Shown here piece by piece: positions 5,999 through 49,930 of a DNA stretch of 49,930 nucleotides. Position 1 is the stretch's first letter, and each line of letters starts with the position of its first letter. The stretch is from Lentisphaerota bacterium (GTDB lineage Bacteria; Verrucomicrobiota; Kiritimatiellia; PWTM01), in NCBI GenBank assembly GCA_016873715.1, contig VGWF01000015.1, forward strand, positions 1 to 49,930, written 5' to 3'. The translations under genes and the position numbers were made by a program. Under the pieces are notes generated by a model, which was not told the origin of the DNA, searched no databases, and worked only from the letters and a program-made list of their open reading frames with translations.

Positions 5999-6847
5999 TC
6001 AGGCAGGGGGGTCGGAGGCCGGGGATTCGCAGGTTCGCAGGTTCGCAGGTTCGGAGGTTCGAAGGTTCGAAGGTTCCGCAGTTGGTTGTTGGCTGTTGGA
6101 TATTGGATGTTGGTTGTTGGACGTCGGTTGCTGGATGTTGGTCTCCGCCCTTGGAGGTTCGGCGTTCGGTGTTCGATTTTCGGCGCTCGCAGTCTCCTCC
6201 TCGCCCTCCGCGGCGTCGGCGGACGCGTCGTCCTCCGCCTCCTCGTCGCGGACCTTCGACGACTTGCGGCGCGTGCGGAACAGGTCCATCTGCGCGCTGC
6301 GGAGCAGGCCGTAGGACTTGAGAATCCGCATCAGCTGCATCACGTCCGACTGGTCGTAGACGAAGTGCGACCGCACCATCCCGGACAGTTCGAGCAGGAT
6401 CGTCCGGAACGGCAGGACCCCGGCGATGCCGCTCTCGCGGATCATCCTCAGCGCCCGGCGCTGCAGGTCGAGCGACGCCGGAAGGCCCGGCAGGCACAGC
6501 ACGGGCGTCACCGTCTCGACGCCCAGCCGCCGGGCGGCCTCCTTCAGCACGTCGGGCGCGCCGATCCGCAGCACGTCGGGCGACGATTCCAGCGTCGACG
6601 GCGAGAACCGTTCCGTGTGCCAGCCGCGGATGCCGACGACCATCGCGCGCACGCGCCGCAGGTCGGCGCCGGTCCAGACGCCCGGATCGGGCGCCGCGCC
6701 GGTCGCATGGGGGTTCCATGCGAGCAGGTCGATCTCCTCGTCCGGCCGCTTCGCGCGTGCCACGACCTGGTACTTGCGCGGCTGGAGGACCGTGAACCCG
6801 AGCCCCTCCAGGTAATCGCGAACGATCGCCTCACTGACGGCAGACAT
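5999..6847 (-). CDS. Unknown protein, possible restriction-endonuclease-like fold, with repeat-encoded tail
   Basis: A 282-residue protein I cannot assign to a named family. The first 80 residues have the layout of a PD-(D/E)xK nuclease core: a helix (IVRDYLEGLGF), then EEIDLLAWNP, then a strand VVGIRGWH where active members would have ExK. The catalytic acid-x-lysine is thus not obvious, and activity is doubtful. Residues 100-200 look globular and helical. From about residue 215 the protein turns acidic and then becomes pure low-complexity (Q-Q-P-T-S-N-like), encoded by the octamer and heptamer tracts at 6029-6188. Those tracts probably invaded the 3' end of the gene. It overlaps the end of aroB by 17 nt and ends 9 nt before dprA. 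Confidence 0.7.
   Translation of the reverse strand: MSAVSEAIVRDYLEGLGFTVLQPRKYQVVARAKRPDEEIDLLAWNPHATGAAPDPGVWTGADLRRVRAMVVGIRGWHTERFSPSTLESSPDVLRIGAPDVLKEAARRLGVETVTPVLCLPGLPASLDLQRRALRMIRESGIAGVLPFRTILLELSGMVRSHFVYDQSDVMQLMRILKSYGLLRSAQMDLFRTRRKSSKVRDEEAEDDASADAAEGEEETASAENRTPNAEPPRAETNIQQPTSNNQHPISNSQQPTAEPSNLRTSEPANLRTCESPASDPPA
6029..6188 (-). repeat. Octamer and heptamer repeat tracts inside a coding 3' end
   Basis: Three consecutive short-period tracts. 6029-6076 is six 8-mers of consensus GNAGGTTC (second base C, C, C, G, A, A). 6081-6143 is nine 7-mers of consensus GTTGGNT. 6154-6188 is five 7-mers close to GGNGTTC. On the minus strand the second reads ANCCAAC and the third GAACNCC, the same two heptamer families found in the array at 48237-49860. 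One position in each unit varies freely while the rest is held. They encode the C-terminal tail of the gene at 5999-6847. Confidence 0.9.
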
Positions 6848-7962: not shown

Positions 7963-8376
7963 CCCCCCGCGCCGGCCTCCAATCATCGGCCAAGCCGTGG
8001 GCATCCGGCGGCCCCCCGTGAGAAATACGCATGGACGCGGCCGCGACTGCGCGCCGCTTCGCGTCGAGTGGCAGGCGGCGCCGCCTTCGCCAGGGCGCTT
8101 CGGCGGCCCAAGGCGCAGCCCTCCAGAACCTGTTCCTTGGGGACATCGCTAAGCAGGGTCGGCGCGGTTCGGGAGGCCCCGAAGCATCGTTCGTTCCCGA
8201 TCGACCGCCCTTGGCCGGGGATTCGGACGGCAAACCGTCCAACCCTTGGAAGCCGCAGCCAGGCGTTTTCCAGACCTTGGAAGCAATAGGCGCCCCCACC
8301 CTGCGTTAGCTGGAGGAAGTTCGCGTCGGCTTCCGGGCGGCGTCGCCTGCGGCCCACGACGCACGGAGGAACGGAC
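7963..8376. other. Intergenic stretch with paired short palindromes
   Basis: Divergent region between aroB and the exported protein at 8377. No gene is supported. It holds the paired TCCAA...TTGGA palindromes at 8238-8282, listed separately. A good Shine-Dalgarno for the 8377 gene (GGAGGAACGGAC before the ATG) lies at the right end. Confidence 0.5.
8238..8282. repeat. Paired TTGGA palindromes, locus 1
   Basis: TCCAACCCTTGGAA (8238-8251) and TTCCAGACCTTGGAA (8268-8282), each a short palindrome with TCCAA/TTGGA-type arms, centres about 31 bp apart. The same 14-mer and the same spacing recur at 37638-37682. They could be operators for a dimeric regulator or a dispersed small repeat. Confidence 0.75.
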
Positions 8377-9647: not shown

Positions 9648-12140
9648 ATGAGCGACACCCTCACGCCGATGATGGCGCAGTACCGGCGCGTGCGCGCGGA
9701 CCTTCCGCCGGACACGATCCTCTTCTTCCACCTCGGCGACTTCTACGAGATGTTCTACGACGACGCCGTCGTCGCGGCGCCGATCCTCGACATCGCCCTC
9801 ACGAAGCGCCAGGCCATGCCGATGTGCGGCGTGCCCGTCCATGCGGCCGACTCCTACATCGCCCGCCTGATCCGCGCCGGGAAGAAGGTCGCCGTCTGCG
9901 AGCAGGTCGAGGATCCCTCCCAGGCGAAGGGCATCGTCCGCCGCGACGTCACCCGCATCGTGACCCCCGGCACCGTCGTCGAGGAGGGCATGCTCGACGC
10001 CCGCCTGAGCAACTACCTCGGCGGCCTCTGGCGCCGCGCCGATGCGTTCGGCCTCGCCATGCTCGAGCTCTCCACCGGCGCCTTCTGGGTCGAGGAGCGG
10101 CCCGATGCCGACAGCGTCCGCGAGTTGCTGGCGAAGTACGCGCCCACCGAGGTCATCGTTCCGCAGGAGCAGCGCGACGCGCTCCTCCCCGCCGCCGCCG
10201 CCGACGGCCGGATGGTCACGCCGGTCGACGACTGGCGCTTCGAACCCGAGGCCGCACGCGACGCGCTTCTGCGCCACTTCGGCGTCGTCTCGCTCGACGG
10301 GTTCGGCTGCGAGGGCCTGCCCGCGGGCGTCGGGGCCGCCGGCGCCGTGCTTCACTACGTGACGGTCGACCTCCGCCGTCCCGCCGGGCACATCCGCCGC
10401 CTCCAGGCCCGCAGCGCCTCGGACTTCGTGGTGCTCGACGAGGCCACCGTCGCCAACCTCGAGCTGGTCACGCCCCGCGGCGGCGGCGCGGGGCCGTGCC
10501 TGCTCAGGGTTGTCGACGCCACCTGCACGCCGATGGGCGGACGGCAGATCCGCGAATGGCTCGTCCGCCCGCTCGGCCGGCGCGACGCCATCGAGGCCCG
10601 CCACGAGGTCGTCGCCGCGCTCTGCGCCAACCGCGACGCGCTGCGCCGCCTGCGCGAGGCCCTCGGCGGCATCCGCGACCTCGAGCGGCTGGTCGCCCGC
10701 ATCAGCGCCGGCGGCGGCAATGCGCGCGACCTGCGCGCCGTCGCCCAGTCGCTGCAGCAGCTGCCCGCGGCGCGCGACGCGGCGGAGTCGCTCGCGGCCC
10801 CCCTCGCCCTCCGGCTCGCCGCGGAGATCCGGCCGCAACCGGCCCTGCTCGACCGCATCGACCGGACGATCGTCGACGAGCCCCCGATCTCCGTCCGCGA
10901 CGGCGGCATGATCCGCGCCGGCTGCCACGCGGAGCTGGACGAACTCCGCAACGCGGCCAGCTCCGGCCGCTCGTGGATCGCGTCCTTCCAGGCCGCCGAG
11001 CAGCAGCGCACGGGCATCAAGTCGCTGAAGATCCGCCACAACAAGATCTTCGGCTACTACATCGAGATCACGCGCAGCAACCTTCAGAGCGTGCCGCCGG
11101 AGTACATCCGCAAGCAGACGATGGCCAACGCGGAGCGGTTCATCACGCCGGAGCTCAAGGACTACGAGAACCGCATCCTCGGCGCCCAGGAGCGCGCCGT
11201 CGCGCTGGAATACGAGCTGTTCCTGGAGGTGCGAGGCGCCGTGCTGGAGCAGACCGACGCCCTCCTGCGCTCCGCCTCGGCCCTCGCCGCGCTCGACGCC
11301 CTCGCCTCGTTCGCCGACCGCGCCCTGGCGCTCGGCTACGCCCGGCCGGTCATGACCGACGGCGACACCCTCCGCATCCGCGACGGGCGCCATCCCGTGA
11401 TCGAGACGCTGCCCGAGGCCGAGCGGTTCGTCCCGAACGACACGCTCCTCGACGGCCGCGGGAACCAGCTCGCCATCATCACCGGCCCCAACATGGCCGG
11501 AAAGTCGACCTACATCCGGCAGGTCGCCCTGATCACGATCCTCGCCCACGCGGGCTCCTTCGTCCCCGCCGCCGAGGCCGAGGTCGGCGTCGTGGACCGC
11601 GTCTTCACCCGCATCGGCGCCTCCGACGACCTCGCCCGCGGCCGCAGCACCTTCATGGTCGAGATGCAGGAGACCGCCAGCATCCTGAACAACGCGACGC
11701 CCCGCAGCCTGATCGTCCTCGACGAGATCGGCCGCGGCACCAGCACCTTCGACGGCATCAGCCTCGCGTGGGCCGTCGCGGAGCACCTCCACAACCGCGC
11801 CTCGGTGAAGGCCAAGACGCTCTTCGCGACGCACTATCACGAGCTGACCGACCTGGCCCTGACCCTGCCGGGGGTGAAGAACTACAACGTCCTCATCCGC
11901 GAAAGCGGCCAGCGGATCGCGTTCCTGCGCAAGATCGTGCCCGGCGCCGCGGACAAGAGCTACGGCATCCACGTCGCCCGCCTCGCCGGCATGCCCGACG
12001 AGGTCATCGACCGCGCGCGCGAGATCCTCTCGAACCTCGAGGAGGGCGAGTTCGGCGAGGCCGGCCAGCCCAAGATCGCCCGCACCCGCCCCTCCCGCCG
12101 CGGCCGCGACGACGGCGGCGCGCAGATGTCGCTGTTCTGA
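9648..12140 (+). CDS. mutS: DNA mismatch repair ATPase MutS
   Basis: An 830-residue MutS that recognises base mismatches and small loops and starts mismatch repair. The N-terminal mismatch-binding domain has the GDFYEMF signature (Phe-x-Glu wedge) near residue 25. The connector, lever and clamp domains follow. The C-terminal ATPase has Walker A GPNMAGKSTY near residue 613, Walker B LIVLDEIGRGTSTFDG near 690, and ATHYHEL. Length is typical of MutS1. No mutL is in the window. It sits 42 nt downstream of the zinc-ribbon gene. Confidence 0.97.
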   Translation: MSDTLTPMMAQYRRVRADLPPDTILFFHLGDFYEMFYDDAVVAAPILDIALTKRQAMPMCGVPVHAADSYIARLIRAGKKVAVCEQVEDPSQAKGIVRRDVTRIVTPGTVVEEGMLDARLSNYLGGLWRRADAFGLAMLELSTGAFWVEERPDADSVRELLAKYAPTEVIVPQEQRDALLPAAAADGRMVTPVDDWRFEPEAARDALLRHFGVVSLDGFGCEGLPAGVGAAGAVLHYVTVDLRRPAGHIRRLQARSASDFVVLDEATVANLELVTPRGGGAGPCLLRVVDATCTPMGGRQIREWLVRPLGRRDAIEARHEVVAALCANRDALRRLREALGGIRDLERLVARISAGGGNARDLRAVAQSLQQLPAARDAAESLAAPLALRLAAEIRPQPALLDRIDRTIVDEPPISVRDGGMIRAGCHAELDELRNAASSGRSWIASFQAAEQQRTGIKSLKIRHNKIFGYYIEITRSNLQSVPPEYIRKQTMANAERFITPELKDYENRILGAQERAVALEYELFLEVRGAVLEQTDALLRSASALAALDALASFADRALALGYARPVMTDGDTLRIRDGRHPVIETLPEAERFVPNDTLLDGRGNQLAIITGPNMAGKSTYIRQVALITILAHAGSFVPAAEAEVGVVDRVFTRIGASDDLARGRSTFMVEMQETASILNNATPRSLIVLDEIGRGTSTFDGISLAWAVAEHLHNRASVKAKTLFATHYHELTDLALTLPGVKNYNVLIRESGQRIAFLRKIVPGAADKSYGIHVARLAGMPDEVIDRAREILSNLEEGEFGEAGQPKIARTRPSRRGRDDGGAQMSLF

Positions 12141-37774: not shown

Positions 37775-38968
37775 ATGAGCGATGCGATCCGCGGGTTTAT
37801 CGAAGCGTGCCGCGCAGCCCTCGCGGCCGGCACGTGGGCGAAGCTGACGCTCGGCGCGCACCGCGGCGCGGACGCGACGCTGCGGAACGTCATCGTGCAG
37901 CCCGTCGCCCTGCGGTCCGGCGACCGCCTCTCGTTCGTGTACCGTCACGCCACGCGGGATGTGACGAAGAACCTCCCCCCCGGGGAGGGACTCGCGCGGG
38001 TCTCCGAACTCCTCGCGACGGACTTCGGCGGCGCCCACCTCTTCACCACCGAGGCCGAGATCGAACTGCAGCCCGCACGGGGCCGGTCGGCGGCGCGCGT
38101 CATCCGCCGCCCCCCGCGCCACGACGCGCCGGCCCCGGACACGCACGACCACGCCCGGGTGCGGCCCATCGATCCCGCCGGCGCGGCGTGGCTGCGCACG
38201 CTCGGCGTCGTCAACGCCGCCGGCCGCCCCCGCGACGGCATGTCGGGGAAGCTCCGGCAGATCGAGAAGTTCGCGGAGATCCTGCTCCACCATGTCGCGG
38301 AGATCCCGCCGCGCGGCGACCGCTCGCTCGCGGTCGTCGACATGGGCTGCGGCAAGGGCTACCTCACGTTCGCCGCCTTCGAGGTCCTCCACTCGGCCGG
38401 CTGGACCCCGCTCCGCGTCACGGGCGTCGAGCGCCGCGCGGACCTGGTCGACGCCTGCAACCGGGCCGCGGCGGAGCACGGCCTCGACGGACTGGCCTTC
38501 ACCCGGGGAGACGTCGCATCGACGCCGCTCGACCGGGCCGACATCCTCGTCGCCCTCCACGCCTGCGACACGGCCACCGACGACGCGCTGGCCAAGGGAA
38601 TCGCCGCCGGCGCCTCGCTGATCCTCGCCTCCCCCTGCTGCCACAAGGAGGTGCGCCGCGGCCTCCGCCCTCCCGCGATTCTCGATCCGGCCCTGCGGCA
38701 CGGGATCCTGCTCGACCGCCACGCGGAACTCGTGACCGACGCCGTGCGCGCATCGCTCCTCGAGTGGGCGGGATACGATGTGAAGGTCTTCGAGTTCGTC
38801 TCGACCGAGCACACGGCCAAGAATCTCATGATCGCCGCCGTCCGCCGTCCCGGCCCCGCCCGCACCGACGCGGCCGCCCACGCGATCCGCGATTTCGCCG
38901 CCTTCCACGGCCTTCGGCGCCAGCGCCTCGCGGAGCATCTCGGATTCACGCTGGACCCGGCCCCGTGA
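37775..38968 (+). CDS. SAM-dependent methyltransferase (METTL25/GSTCD-like domain)
   Basis: A 397-residue protein. An N-terminal domain (1-140) precedes a Rossmann-fold methyltransferase with the SAM motif VVDMGCGKGYLTFAAFEVL near residue 190. A later signature HACDTATDDALAKGI and SPCCHKEVR near 270-290 is typical of the group that includes METTL25 and bacterial rRNA/tRNA-methyltransferase-like proteins. The substrate is unknown, perhaps RNA. The start at 37775 is 7 nt after TAAGAT and no Shine-Dalgarno is seen, consistent with a leaderless message. It converges on the ACT gene, with a tandem repeat between. Confidence 0.85.
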   Translation: MSDAIRGFIEACRAALAAGTWAKLTLGAHRGADATLRNVIVQPVALRSGDRLSFVYRHATRDVTKNLPPGEGLARVSELLATDFGGAHLFTTEAEIELQPARGRSAARVIRRPPRHDAPAPDTHDHARVRPIDPAGAAWLRTLGVVNAAGRPRDGMSGKLRQIEKFAEILLHHVAEIPPRGDRSLAVVDMGCGKGYLTFAAFEVLHSAGWTPLRVTGVERRADLVDACNRAAAEHGLDGLAFTRGDVASTPLDRADILVALHACDTATDDALAKGIAAGASLILASPCCHKEVRRGLRPPAILDPALRHGILLDRHAELVTDAVRASLLEWAGYDVKVFEFVSTEHTAKNLMIAAVRRPGPARTDAAAHAIRDFAAFHGLRRQRLAEHLGFTLDPAP

Positions 38969-39197
38969 CGGACGGGGGGAGACGCACCCGAAGCGGCGTT
39001 CCTTCGCGGGCCCCGTTCACGGCCGCGGTGGCACGCGGCCCGCCCGATCCTCTTCCGGAGCAAGGAAGGTACGCCCACGGACGGTGGGAGGCACCCGAAG
39101 CGGTGTTGCTTCGCGGGCTCCGTTCACGGCCGCGGTGGAACGCGGCCCGCCCGATCCTGTTCCGGAGCAAGGAAGGTCCGCCCACGGACGGTGGACG
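38969..39197. repeat. Tandem repeat, 107-bp period, two copies
   Basis: The unit beginning GCACCCGAAGCGG at 38984 repeats at 39091, about 95 percent identical by eye, and ends with CGCCCACGGACGGTGG; a third copy begins at about 39189 and breaks off. The unit includes an inverted pair GGCCGCG/CGCGGCC. It lies wholly between convergent genes. Confidence 0.85.
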
Positions 39198-39204
39198 CCA
39201 GCCG

Positions 39205-39262
39205 TTCCGCCGTCCCTCCCTCGCCCCCCGCCCCTCGTCCCTCGTCCCCCGCCCCTCGTCCT
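39205..39262. repeat. Pyrimidine-rich heptamer tract
   Basis: A run of 7-mers related to CCCTCGT and CCCCCGC directly after the 107-bp repeats. The same kind of tract (CCCTCGC units) is a module of the array at 48309-49930. Confidence 0.7.
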
Positions 39263-43307: not shown

Positions 43308-45986
43308 TCAGGGCTTGACGGTCTTGCGCAGTTCGAGCGCCCAGTCCGGCGTCGTCGCCTTGTAGTCCTGGAACGCGGCGTATTCGGCTTCGTCGAGGGA
43401 ACCGTCGCCGTTCCGGTCGATGTGGGGAAAGAGCCACTCCCACCCGCCCTTCCCCGCGTCCCACTCGGCGGCGGTCATGCGTCGGTCCCCGTTCCGGTCG
43501 CACGCGTCGAGCAGCGCCCCGAACGTGAACCCGCCCGACGACGGCCTCGATCCGGGAGGCGGCACGGGACCGTCCCAGACCAGCTTCTGTCCCGCCTTCT
43601 CCAGGGACGCGCGCAGCGCCGCGGCGTCGACGGCCTGCACGGCCACGCCCTCCGCGATCGCGCGGACGGCCGCGATGCCGGCCGACTCGCCGCAGATCAT
43701 GAAGACCGGCTCCATGCGCGCCGACGCGTAGCCGAGGTGCGAGGCCGAGAAGCAGACCGGCACGAGCAGGTTCACGCATTCCTCCCGGACCGGCGTGATC
43801 GCGCGGTACGGGATCGGGTACGGCACGTCGGTCGGCCCGCGGCCGCCGCCGATGAACATCTTGCCCTCGAGGCCGACCCGGACGCGGCCGTCGCGCTCGA
43901 ACGCGATCCGCCGCGCCGGGTAGGTGTCGATGCCGTACTGCGCCAGTCCGACGGGATCGTCGACCGTGGTCCGGTTGTAGACGTCGTGCGCCGTGATCGT
44001 GACCGGCCCCTTCAGCCGGCGCGCGACGCGGATGTAGAGCTGGTGCGGCCAGCCCTGCGTGTCCGGATGGAACCGCGGGTCGAGTCCGATCGCCGCGGTC
44101 TGCCGCTGGAACGCCTCCGGCACGCGCGGGTCCGTGCTCATGAACTCGTGCAACCCGCGCAGGTAGTCCTGGTGCAGCTTCCACACGCGTGCCTTCGCCG
44201 CCCAGTCGCCGGCCGCGTAGTCCTGGCTGATGCCGACCGGCGACATCGAGAAGAGCGAGTCGCGGTGGTAGTTCCACTCGCCCGAGTTCTTCCAGCCGGG
44301 GAAGATGCGGGCGAGGCGGGCGAACAGCTCCTTCTCGTCCGCGACCGTCGCGACCAGGTGCCCGACGTAGCGCCCGACGAGTTCGAAATCCCTCGGATCG
44401 TAGCCCGGCGGCGCGGTGATCGGGATGCGCGTCGCGGGATCGTCGGTCGTGTAGTAGCGGTAGTTGTAGGCCTGCGTGAACCCGTCCGCCGCGCCGACCG
44501 GACGGCCGTGGTCCTTCTCCACCCACTTCAGCAGCCCGCTCGCGGGGTCGCCCGGCACGACATAGGGATCGATCGGCGTGTCCTCCATCGGCGGCTGCAC
44601 GCCGGCATGGGGTTCGCCGTATTCATCCGCCGACTCGCGGCCCGCCCGCCACGTCACGCCGGCCGCGGGCATCAGGTCGCCCTCGTAGCTGGCGTCGATG
44701 AAGATCCGCGCCTCCACCCGCAGGTCCGCCCGCGCCGCCGGTTCCGCCGGCGGACATCCGAGCGCGTCGAACGGCGCGAGGTCGAAGACCGCCGCGACGA
44801 TCGACGCGCCCCTCTTCTCGCACGACGCGACGCGGCGATCGAAGATGACCTCGATCCCGTGCTCGCGCAGCAGTGCCGCGAAATCCTCCCGGACCCGGAG
44901 CGGGCTCATCGCGGCCATCGAGCCATGCACGAGGCGGTCGCCGTCCCACTCCGGCGATCCGAGCGTCCGGAGCAGTTTCCGCGTCAGCCCGCCCGTCGCC
45001 GCGTAGTTCGGACAGTCCTGCATGGGCTTGAGCCCGGCGCCGAGCATCCCGCCGACCCAGCGGCCGGGTTCGACGATCACGACGGACCGCCCCTCGCGTT
45101 TCACCGCGACCGCCGCCAGGATGCCGCCCGGCGTCGCGCCGTAGACGCAGACGTCCGCCGCGACCGCGGGCATCGCCGCACCGGCCCGCGCGGTCGCCAG
45201 CCAGAGGACCAGCGCCGCCAGACCCAGCCGGTACCAGGCGAACGCGTCCAGCCGGTGCCGGCCGAGAAAGTGAACGAGGAACCGGATCGAGATCCACCCG
45301 AAGACGAACGAGGTCGCCAGCCCGACCGCGAAGAACGGGATCCACCGCGCCGAAAGCGTCGACATCCCCTTGATCAGGGCGAAGACCGCGGCCAGCCCGA
45401 GCAGGGGGACCGCGGCGAAGAACGAGAACTCCGTCGCGGTCTTCCGATCGACGCCGAGCGCCATGCCGCCGAGGATCGTCGACGCCGAGCGCGACATCCC
45501 CGGCCACAGGGCGAGACACTGGAAGCAGCCGATCCGCAGCGCGTCCCTCCACGTCAGCGAGTCCACGCCGGCCTTGTGCGGGTCCGGATGGCCCCGGTGC
45601 TCCGCCAGCAGCATCCAGACCGCCCCCACGGCCAGCCCCACCGCCACCGTCTTCGGCGTGAAGAGATGCTCCTCGATCAACGGATGCAGCAGCAGTCCGG
45701 CCAGCGCCGCGGGCAGCGTCGTCAGCGCCAGCATCAGCCACGCGCGACCGCCGGCGAACGCCCCGGCCGCGCCGCGCCGAAAGAAGCCGGCGAAGCGCCC
45801 CGGATAGGCAAGGATCACGGCGAGGATCGCGCCGGCCTGGATGAAGACCTCGAACGCGCCCTCGACCTCCGGCGGCACCCCGAACCACTTCCCGACCAGG
45901 ATCAGGTGACCGGTCGACGAGACGGGCACATACTCCGTCAGCCCCTCGACCACCCCCATCGCCGCCGCAGTCAGCAGGTTGGTCAC
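43308..45986 (-). CDS. Fusion of UppP (undecaprenyl-diphosphatase), FAD-dependent oxidoreductase and EF-hands
   Basis: A continuous frame of 892 residues. Residues 1-265 are UppP/BacA: EGLTEYVPVSSTGHLI near residue 14, PGMSRSASTILGGM near 160, and about eight hydrophobic helices. UppP dephosphorylates undecaprenyl diphosphate for cell-wall lipid carrier recycling. From residue 275 a FAD-dependent oxidoreductase begins (DVCVYGATPGGILAAVAV, IFIDASYEGDLMPAAG, LLVPVCFSASHLGY), related to the neighbouring 45983 gene. Two EF-hands close the chain (CDRNGDRRMTAAE, DRNGDGSLDEAE). The last UppP helix (LGLAALVLWLATARAGAA) runs straight into the oxidoreductase like a signal peptide. The start GTG 45986 overlaps the preceding stop (GTGA); GTG 46001 is an alternative. 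Confidence 0.85.
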   Translation of the reverse strand: MTNLLTAAAMGVVEGLTEYVPVSSTGHLILVGKWFGVPPEVEGAFEVFIQAGAILAVILAYPGRFAGFFRRGAAGAFAGGRAWLMLALTTLPAALAGLLLHPLIEEHLFTPKTVAVGLAVGAVWMLLAEHRGHPDPHKAGVDSLTWRDALRIGCFQCLALWPGMSRSASTILGGMALGVDRKTATEFSFFAAVPLLGLAAVFALIKGMSTLSARWIPFFAVGLATSFVFGWISIRFLVHFLGRHRLDAFAWYRLGLAALVLWLATARAGAAMPAVAADVCVYGATPGGILAAVAVKREGRSVVIVEPGRWVGGMLGAGLKPMQDCPNYAATGGLTRKLLRTLGSPEWDGDRLVHGSMAAMSPLRVREDFAALLREHGIEVIFDRRVASCEKRGASIVAAVFDLAPFDALGCPPAEPAARADLRVEARIFIDASYEGDLMPAAGVTWRAGRESADEYGEPHAGVQPPMEDTPIDPYVVPGDPASGLLKWVEKDHGRPVGAADGFTQAYNYRYYTTDDPATRIPITAPPGYDPRDFELVGRYVGHLVATVADEKELFARLARIFPGWKNSGEWNYHRDSLFSMSPVGISQDYAAGDWAAKARVWKLHQDYLRGLHEFMSTDPRVPEAFQRQTAAIGLDPRFHPDTQGWPHQLYIRVARRLKGPVTITAHDVYNRTTVDDPVGLAQYGIDTYPARRIAFERDGRVRVGLEGKMFIGGGRGPTDVPYPIPYRAITPVREECVNLLVPVCFSASHLGYASARMEPVFMICGESAGIAAVRAIAEGVAVQAVDAAALRASLEKAGQKLVWDGPVPPPGSRPSSGGFTFGALLDACDRNGDRRMTAAEWDAGKGGWEWLFPHIDRNGDGSLDEAEYAAFQDYKATTPDWALELRKTVKP

Positions 45987-48079
45987 GGCGCCGGGACCCA
46001 CTGGACCGCGTCGACGACCACGTGCCCCTTCGTCCCGGCATTCGACACGAGCACCTCGGCCTTGCCGCCGGGCGCAAACTCGAAGGTGCCGAGGGGGACG
46101 AGCATGCCGTCGATCGGCGGCGTTTCACGCTGATTCACGGTCGCCTTCGCCTCCCCGCCCGCGTGCCGCACCGTCACCGGCACGGCCGTCGCGCGGTTGG
46201 AACTGGCGGGGAACGCCAGCCTCACCTCGTACCGCCCGGCCTTCGGAATCGCCGCCTGGAACAGCGCCGTGCACTCGCCCTTCGCCGAATTGCCGTCATG
46301 GCGGTAGCCGTTGCCCACCCACGTCCCGAGGGAGTGGCTGTCGCCCCAAGGGCCGGCCAGCTCGGCCTTCTCGTCGTCGACCACGATCCCCGGCAGTTCG
46401 ACGCCCGTCCGGTGGCCGCCGTGCAGCCGCTCGGCGCCGGGCGGCGTCTCGAGGACCTGGCCGTCCGCCAGCAGCCGCTCGCGCAGCTTTGCGTAGTCGA
46501 CCTCCTGGACCGCCTGCCCCGCATCGATCGCCATCGCCGCCGCCGTCGCCGCGCTCTGGCCGAGGATCATGAACACGGGTTCCATCCGGATCGACCCGTA
46601 CGCGATGTGCGAGCTGCCGACGCAGACGGGCACGAGCAGGTTCGCGCACTCGCCCCGCTTCGGAACGAGCGATCCGTAGGAGATCCTGTAGGGCTTCAGT
46701 CCGACGCCGATGTCGCCCTCGTTCTGCACCGTGCCCTCGGGCGTCACGTAGCGCCAGACATTGTGCGAGTCCATCGCGTAGGAGCCCATGCCGACCGGCT
46801 GCGGCACCTCGCGCTTGCCGAGCAGATGCTGGTCGGTCATCACGAACTCCCCGACCATCCGCCGCGCCTCGCGGACGTAGATCTGGTGCGACCAGTTCCC
46901 GTTGTCCGCGAACTCGTCCTTCGGCAGCCCCCAGCGGCTCATCTCGGTCCGCACGTCCTCCGGCACGCGCGGATCGTTGGCGAGGAAGTAGAGCCAGCCC
47001 TTCTGGTAGGTCTCGTGCTCGCGCAGGATCTCGCGGCGGCGGTCGTAGTCCGCCTCGGGGTAGTCGTGGTTCATCCCGATGTTGTCGGTGCTGAACGGCC
47101 CGTGGTTGTTCGTGTCGGTCTTCTTGTTCGGGATCGGGTCGAACTTCCCGAACGTCTCGCGCCACCCCGTCGCGAGGACGCGCAGGACCAGCTCGTACTG
47201 CAGCGGATCGTACCCCTCGGGCTTCGCGAACGGGATGCGGTTCTCCGGGCAGTCGGTCAGGCACATCCGGTAGCAGTAGGCCTGCACGCCCGCGTCGCCG
47301 GATCCGTTCTCGCCCGGCGGGGTCTTCGCGATGCGCGGCAGGAGCCCGCTCGACGGGTCCCCCGGCTTCACGTAGGGGTCGACCGGCTTCTTGAAGTAGT
47401 GCCCGTGGTGCTTCGCGCCTTTCTGGACGCCGTTCCACTGCTCGCCGTAGACCGAATTCGCCTCGCGCCCGACGTGGTAGCCGACCCCCGCCGCCGCCAT
47501 CAGGTCGCCCTCGTAGGTCGCGTCGATGAACATCTTCCCCGCGTAGACGTTGCCGCCCAGCATGCGGACCGACGCGATGCGCCCGCCCTCCTTGCGGACC
47601 CCCGCCTTGCGGTCGAGCCACTCGTCGCGGAACACGCGGATCTTGAACTCGGCGACGAAGTCCTCGAAAACCGCCTCGGCCACGTGCGGCTCGAAGATCC
47701 ACATCGTGCGCTGGTCGCCGTCGATCGCCGCCGTCCCCTGCCCCTTGTTCCCGTACTCCTCGCGCTTCTGCCAGCGCCACGCGTCGGCCCGGTCGTAGTG
47801 CTTCCAGACGCGGTGGTAGAACTCGCGGGAGAGGCCGCCGATCACCGCCTTGTTGCCGGTGTCGGTCCAGCCGAGACCGCCGGAGGACAACCCGCCGAGG
47901 TGCTTGTCGGGGCAGACGAGGATCGCGGTCTTTCCCATCTTCACCGCCTGCACCGCCGCAATGACGCCCGCCGACGTGCCGCCGTAGACGATCACGTCCG
48001 CCTCGCGGGTCTCCGCCGTCCGCCCCGTCCCCGCGAGGGCCGTCACCGCCGCCAGAATCCACCCGAGGTGCTTCTTCAT
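45983..48079 (-). CDS. Exported FAD-dependent oxidoreductase with C-terminal golvesin-like domain
   Basis: A 698-residue exported protein. A signal peptide (MKKHLGWILAAVTALAGTGR) is followed by a FAD-binding Rossmann fold (VIVYGGTSAGVIAAVQAVKM, GGLSSGGLGWTD), the family segments FIDATYEGDLMAAAGVGYHV and ANLLVPVCVGSSHIAYGSIR, and a C-terminal beta-sandwich (about 565-698, KAGRYEVRLAFPASSNRATA). The latter resembles golvesin/xanthan lyase carbohydrate-binding domains. Secreted FAD enzymes of this family are abundant in PVC bacteria; the sugar or polyol oxidised is unknown. GGGAGAG upstream of ATG 48079 sets the start. It overlaps the UppP fusion by 4 nt. Confidence 0.9.
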   Translation of the reverse strand: MKKHLGWILAAVTALAGTGRTAETREADVIVYGGTSAGVIAAVQAVKMGKTAILVCPDKHLGGLSSGGLGWTDTGNKAVIGGLSREFYHRVWKHYDRADAWRWQKREEYGNKGQGTAAIDGDQRTMWIFEPHVAEAVFEDFVAEFKIRVFRDEWLDRKAGVRKEGGRIASVRMLGGNVYAGKMFIDATYEGDLMAAAGVGYHVGREANSVYGEQWNGVQKGAKHHGHYFKKPVDPYVKPGDPSSGLLPRIAKTPPGENGSGDAGVQAYCYRMCLTDCPENRIPFAKPEGYDPLQYELVLRVLATGWRETFGKFDPIPNKKTDTNNHGPFSTDNIGMNHDYPEADYDRRREILREHETYQKGWLYFLANDPRVPEDVRTEMSRWGLPKDEFADNGNWSHQIYVREARRMVGEFVMTDQHLLGKREVPQPVGMGSYAMDSHNVWRYVTPEGTVQNEGDIGVGLKPYRISYGSLVPKRGECANLLVPVCVGSSHIAYGSIRMEPVFMILGQSAATAAAMAIDAGQAVQEVDYAKLRERLLADGQVLETPPGAERLHGGHRTGVELPGIVVDDEKAELAGPWGDSHSLGTWVGNGYRHDGNSAKGECTALFQAAIPKAGRYEVRLAFPASSNRATAVPVTVRHAGGEAKATVNQRETPPIDGMLVPLGTFEFAPGGKAEVLVSNAGTKGHVVVDAVQWVPAP

Positions 48080-48145: not shown

Positions 48146-48240
48146 GCCCGCGCCGCATTCCGCCGCCCCGGTGGAGGATGACAACCGAATGGGGACAACC
48201 GAATGGGCGCGAGGCGCGAACACCGACGTTCGGACTCAAC

Positions 48241-48275
48241 ACCCAACAACCAACAGCCAACAACCAACACCCAAC
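48241..48275. repeat. ANCCAAC heptamer tract, five units
   Basis: ACCCAAC AACCAAC AGCCAAC and two more; the second base is C, A, G, A, C while the other six are fixed. Further tracts of the same heptamer are at 48735-48783 (seven units), 48975-49002 (four), 49428-49434 (one), 49654-49674 (three) and 49852-49858 (one). Confidence 0.9.
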
Positions 48276-48413
48276 GCGGAAAACGAGGAAGGCCGCGAGG
48301 AAGAGACCGACACTCGACACCTGCCACTCGACACCGTTTTCCCTCGCCCCCCGACCCTCGCCCCTTTCCGGGTGCGAACTACCGCGAGCCCGAACGCAGG
48401 ATCCCGGGACGCA

Positions 48414-48730
48414 CTCCCCGGCCTCGCAGTAGCTCGGCCCTCCATTGGTTGGCTATGGAGTTCTGGCTGTCGGGTGTTTGACGTTGAATCCCGCCGCCCT
48501 GGCCGGAGGATGACAACCGAATGGGGACAACCGAATGGAAACGGGCAATAAACACCGAACACCGAACGCCGGACGCTTTCAGGTTTCAGGTTTCCGCCCT
48601 CATCCTTCCTGTCTCCGCGCCCTGGAGGGGCGAGCTACCGCGAGCCCGAACGCAGGATCCCGTTACCCTCCCGCCGGCCTCGCAGTAGCTCGGCCCTCCA
48701 GCACAGGAAGAGGGACGAGGGGCGGGGATC
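48414..48730. repeat. 317-bp duplicated block, copy 1
   Basis: Repeated at 49108-49424 (offset 694) with a single visible difference (G at 48448, T at 49142). It contains a partial inverted-repeat element, the CAACCGAATGG pair, the GAACACC/GAACGCC and TTTCAGG heptamers, and a full inverted-repeat element. Confidence 0.9.
48623..48700. repeat. Inverted-repeat element of the array, best full copy
   Basis: Begins CTGGAGGGGCGAGCTACCGC and ends with CTCGCAGTAGCTCGGCCCTCCAG; the two ends pair over about 23 bp with few mismatches around a core containing GAACGCAGGATCCCGTTACC. Other full copies lie near 48370-48443, 48866-48942, 49315-49394 and 49530-49603. Two copies (49097-49138 and 49771-49811) lack the left arm and core, so they keep only the right arm. 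Confidence 0.85.
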
Positions 48731-49107
48731 ACAACCCCAACAACCAACAGCCAACAACCAACAGCCAACAACCAACATCCAACGGCGAATAGCGAGGAAG
48801 AGGCCGACACTCGACACCTGCCACTCGAAACCGCCCTCCCTCGCCCCCCGACCCTCGCCCCTTTCCGGGTGCGAACTACCGCGAGCCCGAACACAGGATC
48901 CCGTTACCCTCCCCCCGGCCTCGCAGTAGCTCGGCCCTCCATCACACGAAGAGGGACGAGGGGCGGGGATCAACAGCCAACAACCAACAGCCAACATCCA
49001 ACGCGGAAGACGAGGAAGGCCGCGAGGAAGAGACCGACACCCGACACCTGCCGCTCGACACCGTCCTCCCTCGCCCCCCGACCCTCGCCCCTTTCCGGCT
49101 GCGAGCC

Positions 49108-49424
49108 CTCCCCGGCCTCGCAGTAGCTCGGCCCTCCATTGTTTGGCTATGGAGTTCTGGCTGTCGGGTGTTTGACGTTGAATCCCGCCGCCCTGGCCGG
49201 AGGATGACAACCGAATGGGGACAACCGAATGGAAACGGGCAATAAACACCGAACACCGAACGCCGGACGCTTTCAGGTTTCAGGTTTCCGCCCTCATCCT
49301 TCCTGTCTCCGCGCCCTGGAGGGGCGAGCTACCGCGAGCCCGAACGCAGGATCCCGTTACCCTCCCGCCGGCCTCGCAGTAGCTCGGCCCTCCAGCACAG
49401 GAAGAGGGACGAGGGGCGGGGATC
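49108..49424. repeat. 317-bp duplicated block, copy 2
   Basis: Second copy of 48414-48730, identical but for one base. Near-identity over the whole block points to recent duplication or gene conversion. Confidence 0.9.
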
Positions 49425-49930
49425 AACATCCAACGGCGGAAGACGAGGAAGGCCGCGAGGAAGAGACCGACACCCGACACCTGCCACTCGACACCGTTTT
49501 CCCTCGCCCCCCGACCCTCGCCCCTTTCCGGGGGCGAGCTACCGCGAGCCCGAACGCAGGATCCCGTTACCCTCCCCCCGGCCTCGCAGTAGCTCGGCCC
49601 TCCATCACAGGAAGAGGGACGAGGGACGAGGGACGAGAGGCGGGGATCACAACACCCAACAACCAACAGCCAACGGCGGAAGACGAGGAAGGCCGCGAGG
49701 AAGAGACCGACACTCGACACCGGCCACTCGACACCGTTCTCCCTCGACCCCCGACCCTCGCCCCTTTCCGGCGGCGAGCCCTCCCCGGCCTCGCAGTAGC
49801 TCGGCCCTCCAGCACAGGAAGAGGGACGAGGGACGAGGGACGGGGATCAACATCCAACGGCGGAAGACGAGGAAGGCCGCGAGGAAGAGGCCGACACTCG
49901 ACACCTGCCACTCGACACCGCTCTCCCTCG

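Follow-up and report, generated by a model that had tools for sequence, protein, structure and literature searches.

Introduction

An excess of heptameric repeats is reported for many bacterial genomes, and one hypothesis quoted to explain it is that it reflects the length of DNA in contact with the polymerase active site (Rehm et al., PMC4692102). Arrays of the heptamer TAACTGA have been found mixed with other heptamers, with 7-nt indels between Cyanothece strains and with contigs ending in the repeats (MacGregor, PMC4679880). Satellite families derived from heptamers have been described (Subirana and Messeguer, PMC6749651), as have bacterial tandem repeats of constant length and varying sequence, with units of 20-21 and 52 nt (Subirana and Messeguer, PMC8161180). 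Among palindromic elements, those of the GTAG-tagged REP type have been reported from the PVC superphylum (PMC3733652). The heptamer preference and the existence of mixed heptamer assemblages are already published, and the locus described here, from a Lentisphaerota bacterium, is a rich further example of both.

Results

Architecture of the locus

The window, by which we mean the whole stretch of DNA that was analysed, is the entire 49,930 bp contig C15 of a 5.13 Mb genome in 289 contigs (completeness 97.6%). Its best protein hits are mostly to Planctomycetes and Verrucomicrobia MAGs, which makes a PVC-group genome likely. A minus-strand gene for a FAD-oxidoreductase/golvesin-domain protein (45983-48079) has its start approximately 100 bp from the beginning of the repeat array, which lies upstream of it and extends to the contig end, i.e. 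to an assembly break. The original prediction, that the array leaves the window, is correct in that it reaches the window end, but that end is the contig end, and the full array length is hidden because the assembly stops there and not because the window was cut. In the same part of the contig, an open frame of 897 aa (43308-46001, minus strand) encodes first a BacA/UppP domain (13-263) and then a FAD_oxidored domain (283-800), and is a possible fusion or a missed boundary.

The locus is built of successive higher-order units, each roughly 200-260 bp long; in the commonest of these, an ~80-bp palindrome is followed by arrays of GAGGGAC and then CCAACAN, a linker, arrays of GACACYC and then CCCTCGC, and the next palindrome (Table 1). 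Palindrome, linker and higher-order duplication, rather than heptamer array, make up the bulk of 48173-49930: of its 1758 bp, 301 bp (17%) lie in strict arrays, defined by at least 17 lag-7 matches in 21, and 593 bp (34%) in looser ones (15 in 21). The same scan of this region covered 0 bp at periods 5, 6, 8, 9, 10, 11 and 13. Elsewhere in the window, a period-8 array of TTCGCAGG (6.9 copies, 6026-6081) adjoins the GTTGGNT heptamer array, and a 107-bp direct duplication lies beside the CCCTCGN heptamer array (38968-39261).

Table 1. Repeat features of the locus and of two further heptamer arrays in the same window
Feature	Position	Strand	Other copies	Evidence or remark
GACAACCGAATGGG x2, 14-bp direct repeat	48180..48210	+	48512, 49206	no lag-7 signal
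CCAACAN heptamer array	48233..48278	+		lag-7 module test
GACACYC heptamer array, degenerate	48307..48337	+	48806, 49036, 49469, 49711, 49894	lag-7 p 0.0005-0.011
CCCTCGC heptamer array (minus-strand GAGGGNC)	48341..48368	-	48838, 49068, 49742	lag-7 module test
694-bp segment, higher-order repeat	48429..49122	+	second copy from 49123 onward	48440-48731 100% identical to 49134-49425
AACACCG heptamer array	48549..48578	+	49243-49272 (identical)	lag-7 module test
TTTCAGG heptamer array, 2.6 perfect copies	48577..48594	+	49271 (identical)	lag-7 module test
Palindromic element TGGAGGGGCGAGCTAC...GTAGCTCGGCCCTCCA, ~80 bp	48618..48704	.	more full/partial copies through 49811	DNA fold, genome copies
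GAGGGAC heptamer array	48709..48730	+	49403, 49609, 49817	lag-7 module test
CCAACAN heptamer array, ~7 units	48735..48786	+		lag-7 module test
CCAACAN heptamer array	48969..49004	+		lag-7 module test
GAGGGAC array (49607-49645) directly abutting CCAACAN array (49647-49678)	49607..49678	+		lag-7 module test
GAGGGAC array, ~4 units	49814..49849	+		longer than the equivalent array at 48709
CCAACAN (GTTGGNT) heptamer array, outside 48173-49930	6081..6142	-		
CCCTCGN heptamer array, outside 48173-49930	39217..39261	-		

A 7-bp period at the locus and across the genome

The 7-bp periodicity of 48173-49930 is real and significant against shuffled sequence. The lag-7 self-match is 0.438 (z 13.3 against first-order shuffles), harmonics appear at lag 14 (z 10.3) and lag 21 (z 8.3), and z exceeds 6.0 at no other lag up to 60. 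When modules were shuffled one at a time, lag 7 was significant in the CCAAC, GACAC, CCCTCGC, AACACCG, TTTCAGG and GAGGGAC modules (p from 0 to 0.012), while the GACAACCGAATGGG module at 48180 proved to be a 14-bp duplication without a lag-7 signal. The statement that nearly every module has this period therefore holds for the repeat modules, with GACAACCGAATGGG as the exception, and does not extend to the region as a whole, most of which is palindrome or linker.

Using a sample of 677 kb chosen regardless of repeats (contigs C1-C9), we found 41 period-7 segments, grouped into 24 loci; 37 of the 41 were non-coding-like by a crude GC-frame measure, compared with 15% of random places. The same sample held 8 segments at period 8, 2 at period 4 and 4 at period 5 (of which 0-1 were non-coding), and 0-1 at each of periods 10, 11 and 13; segments at periods 14, 21 and 28 were largely harmonics and those at 3, 6, 9 and 12 mostly coding. 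The second-commonest non-coding-like short period was 8, tied with period 12 (8 segments each). Sets of four identical pentamers at equal distances occurred 95 times at spacing 7, eight times at spacing 8, once at spacing 6 and never at 10, 11 or 13, against 1 overall after shuffling. The exact sequence (CCAACAN)2CCAAC occurs 345 times in the genome, as against three times for a reversed control, and was absent from all eight other genomes searched in the same family. Of 48 flanks of array loci, 27 have another match, which may reflect degenerate array tails. The pattern is thus not confined to one locus, and the search for many 7-bp-periodic loci with different motifs was positive both in this genome and in others (see below), which makes a shared process behind these loci likely. 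On another contig (L065; C10, about 45000-50000), 5 kb of the sequence reads as N.

Kinship of the heptamer words

The motifs of the locus had looked unrelated to one another; most of them are kin. CCCTCGC is GAGGGAC read from the opposite strand, units of the GACAC, GAGGG and CCAAC types intergrade within single arrays, and CCAACAN and CGAACAN are intermixed in many arrays. Words also change by one base in phase within an array, for example AGGGGCG/AGTGGCG/AGTGTCG (L033, 15330-15391) and GTGTTGG/GTGTCGG (L037, 5453-5513). The 112 non-coding arrays reduce to 35 distinct consensus words, 29 of which join in one Hamming-1 (single-substitution) network; letter-shuffled word sets, a null that preserves letter composition only, join 41% of words on average and 77% at most (200 trials). 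Outside the network stand five families (AAGACGG, AAACTTG and others) and a sixth, CCGCGCG, which is of low complexity. The motifs in this genome are thus mostly related by point substitution. Within arrays of at least five units variation is clustered in a few positions, somewhat beyond random scatter, and CSAACAN units are more than 95% fixed at five positions, with a variable last base (T, G, A, C) and C or G as the second base.

Growth of the arrays

Outside arrays, exact two-copy 7-bp duplications number 90 (15 of them in non-coding-like DNA), against 127 expected from third-order shuffles, and so give no sign of a process that duplicates arbitrary 7-bp sequences. Existing arrays, on the other hand, do change copy number in 7-nt steps, as seen between duplicated units within this genome only. 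Distinct indels of at least 6 bp between higher-order units that are ~5% diverged include lengths of 7 (eight times), 14 (five), 28 (five), 21, 35 and 42, mostly complete heptamer units, although roughly one in two of the larger indels has a length not divisible by 7 and the unit pairs that were aligned are not independent of each other. GAGGGAC arrays that occupy the equivalent unit position in the window hold about two to four copies. Arrays thus change in whole units, and the period is inherited.

A simulation of plain slippage with mutation yielded a profile of fixed and variable positions similar to the observed one. Simulated slippage that needed at least 4 bases of exact homology failed to keep the arrays periodic, and the slippage model is therefore crude. 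Ordinary slippage had been discounted on the grounds that it gives one motif of arbitrary period, an argument that fails once a heptamer array exists: slippage within it keeps the period while the sequence drifts.

The palindromic element

An inverted-repeat element had been seen to separate the motif groups, and indeed an ~80-bp palindrome alternates with the arrays; folded as single-stranded DNA it reaches -29.7 kcal/mol (z -5.6). A search with 48440-48760 returned 146 matches in the genome, mostly to the palindrome part. Other contigs also hold tandem series of palindrome half-sites, and in several of these series the spacers are heptamer arrays. In the 677-kb sample, a half-site lies within 300 bp of only 1 of the 24 array loci. 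A second palindrome subtype (CGGCCGCGCGGAGCGCGGCCCTCC) is found in tandem at ~110-bp spacing on contig C198 (L044, 312-1045).

The unpaired terminal GTAG tag of REP/BIME elements was not seen; the predicted fold pairs GTAG within the palindrome stem. Neither did we find a RAYT (Y1_Tnp) gene flanked by the palindrome, the genome giving three weak Y1_Tnp hits with the palindrome pattern absent from their loci. With no candidates but these, Y1_Tnp/RAYT was rejected as the driver of the palindrome.

Period-7 repeats in other genomes

Of 289 genomes of the phylum, 25 have arrays of CGAACAY, and these genomes belong to scattered families. In 100-kb samples from each of four CGAACAY-bearing genomes, some from contigs picked for carrying that word, period-7 segments numbered 1, 7, 11 and 6, compared with 0-2 at period 8, and additional words were CTAATTC, CACTTCT, TATGAAC, CCGAAAC, CATCAAC and GTCAGAG. 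In 180 kb of G002, a genome of the same family as ours, there were no period-7 segments. In records from Verrucomicrobia, Planctomycetes and the Bacteroidota group, the DNA flanking a homologous gene held 5, 4 and 5 period-7 segments and 1, 0 and 0 period-8 segments, respectively. In a Verrucomicrobium record (L133), an AATTAGG period-7 array (8080-8113) follows closely downstream of the gene homologous to the array-adjacent one. Although relatives were sampled thinly, genomes of other lineages also show period 7, so that the preference for 7 extends beyond this lineage and is not accounted for by descent within it.

Discussion

Taken together, these data probably describe heptamer microsatellites that change length in steps of 7n and drift in sequence, co-amplified with an ~80-bp palindrome as non-coding satellite DNA. 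Arrays would gain or lose whole 7-bp units by replication slippage or unequal exchange; the copy differences are observed, and slippage or exchange would be the enzymatic step behind them. Point mutations within units may then be amplified, so that an array lineage drifts to new words, a plausible series being CCAACAN, CCGACAC, TCGACAC, TCGCCAC, TCGCCCC; the intergrading is plain in the arrays, and the direction of change is presumed. The 7-bp spacing would be inherited through this drift. At this locus the arrays lie between palindrome copies, and the composite has been tandem-duplicated as units of roughly 200-260 bp and of 694 bp. We infer that the arrays are most probably neutral or close to neutral, and the repeats are best read as copied from repeats and not as a coded signal. 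On the best reading no 7-nt reader is needed, the period being inherited; a common period among different-looking motifs can be inheritance, not code. Where a common copying mechanism or a 7-nt reader had been proposed, the number of loci makes a shared process likely, but neither a copying machine nor a reader follows, given that the motifs are mostly kin and exact two-copy 7-bp duplications outside arrays are not in excess.

Several observations count against this account of drifting satellite DNA. Descent within one genome leaves the other words in other genomes of the phylum (CTAATTC, TATGAAC, CCGAAAC, CATCAAC) unexplained, five word families fall outside the single-substitution network, many of the larger indels are not multiples of 7, and slippage simulated with a homology requirement lost the periodicity. 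With only 1 of 24 array loci near a palindrome, the palindrome does not account for the spread of arrays to many separate loci.

Several candidate causes or common denominators were rejected. No reverse transcriptase (PF00078), which telomerase-like or DGR templating would call for, was matched in this genome; MutS is present (window 11475-12041), which does not fit microsatellite expansion through MutS loss; and Y-family polymerases occur in array-rich and array-poor genomes alike. None of the three separates rich from poor genomes. Rfam gave 0 hits over the window, and G-quadruplexes are not the common denominator, since only GAGGGNC units contain runs of three or more G, and such runs are as a rule missing from both strands of CSAACAN and GACACYC units.

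The period might instead be imposed on arbitrary sequence by a 7-nt copying bias, whether through polymerase contact size or through re-annealing one 7-nt step back. The polymerase-contact hypothesis is already published for bacterial heptamers (PMC4692102), and an excess of period 7 in several genomes whose motifs differ suits such a bias, but we consider it rather unlikely: two-copy duplications are not enriched outside arrays, most motifs of this genome are kin, and G002 has no period-7 segment in 180 kb yet has Y-family polymerases. In its strong form, a 7-nt ruler built into DNA synthesis or repair of some bacteria would write arrays of any sequence, would be active in scattered lineages and would yield much intergenic repeat DNA, a proposal that we regard as doubtful.

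It is quite improbable that the units are binding sites of a protein or RNA that reads ~7 nt per step, with the spacing kept by selection. The near-fixation of CSAACAN units, with one position free and one C/G, would fit such sites, as would the CGAACAY word in 25 phylum genomes, of which only 2 carry the reversed word. Against this, many different words have the same period and drift inside arrays, word sets vary by genome in a patchy pattern, and neutral simulation also yields fixed and variable positions; since the motif is not constant between arrays or between genomes, a reader specific to one sequence is disfavoured.

That a mobile palindromic (REP/MITE-like) element carries the arrays is highly improbable. 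The palindrome is widely repeated and flanks arrays here and on several other contigs, and palindrome carriage may account for local co-amplification, but as a carrier of all arrays it is largely refuted by the 1 in 24 array loci near it and by the weak Y1_Tnp candidates, none with the palindrome nearby. We give almost no credence to an assembly artefact for, although the contig ends inside an array, arrays are also internal to contigs (e.g. C1 109,245) and occur in long contigs of other genomes (G201, a single contig of 4.4 Mb; G189).

Heptamer arrays break assemblies. A preference for 7 over 5, 6 or 8 is a known property of many bacterial genomes. With ~24 array loci per 677 kb here, none in 180 kb of G002, and other words in distant phylum members, the contrast of rich and poor genomes is a natural comparison in which to seek the cause of this preference.

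The palindrome resembles REP elements yet fails two defining REP features. Like GTAG-tagged REP/BIMEs (PMC3733652) it is short, many-copy, often in inverted pairs and clustered, with flanking DNA tandemly reiterated; unlike them, its GTAG lies within a long stem and is not an unpaired tag, and no flanking RAYT gene was found. The arrays share with constant-length, variable-sequence repeats (PMC8161180) a conserved unit length and a varying sequence, but have a unit of 7 and interrelated motifs. TAACTGA direct repeats of Beggiatoaceae, Cyanobacteria and Bacteroidetes (PMC4679880) are likewise intergenic heptamers in which contigs break, with mixed heptamer assemblages in Microcystis, Gramella and Aequorivita and 7-nt indels between close strains; their words differ, and TAACTGA often stands just upstream of start codons. 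Heptameric SSRs, namely GGGAATC/GGGANTN in Xanthomonas, GGGGA(C/T)T in Nostoc and the cyanobacterial STRRs (PMC4692102), have one dominant G-rich word, whereas here several words intergrade, the host is GC-rich and a palindrome is interleaved in higher-order repeats. As in those systems, the tandem unit is 7 bp, commoner than other lengths, mainly non-coding and intergenic at many loci, with some degenerate unit positions, variable copy number and a patchy distribution among relatives.
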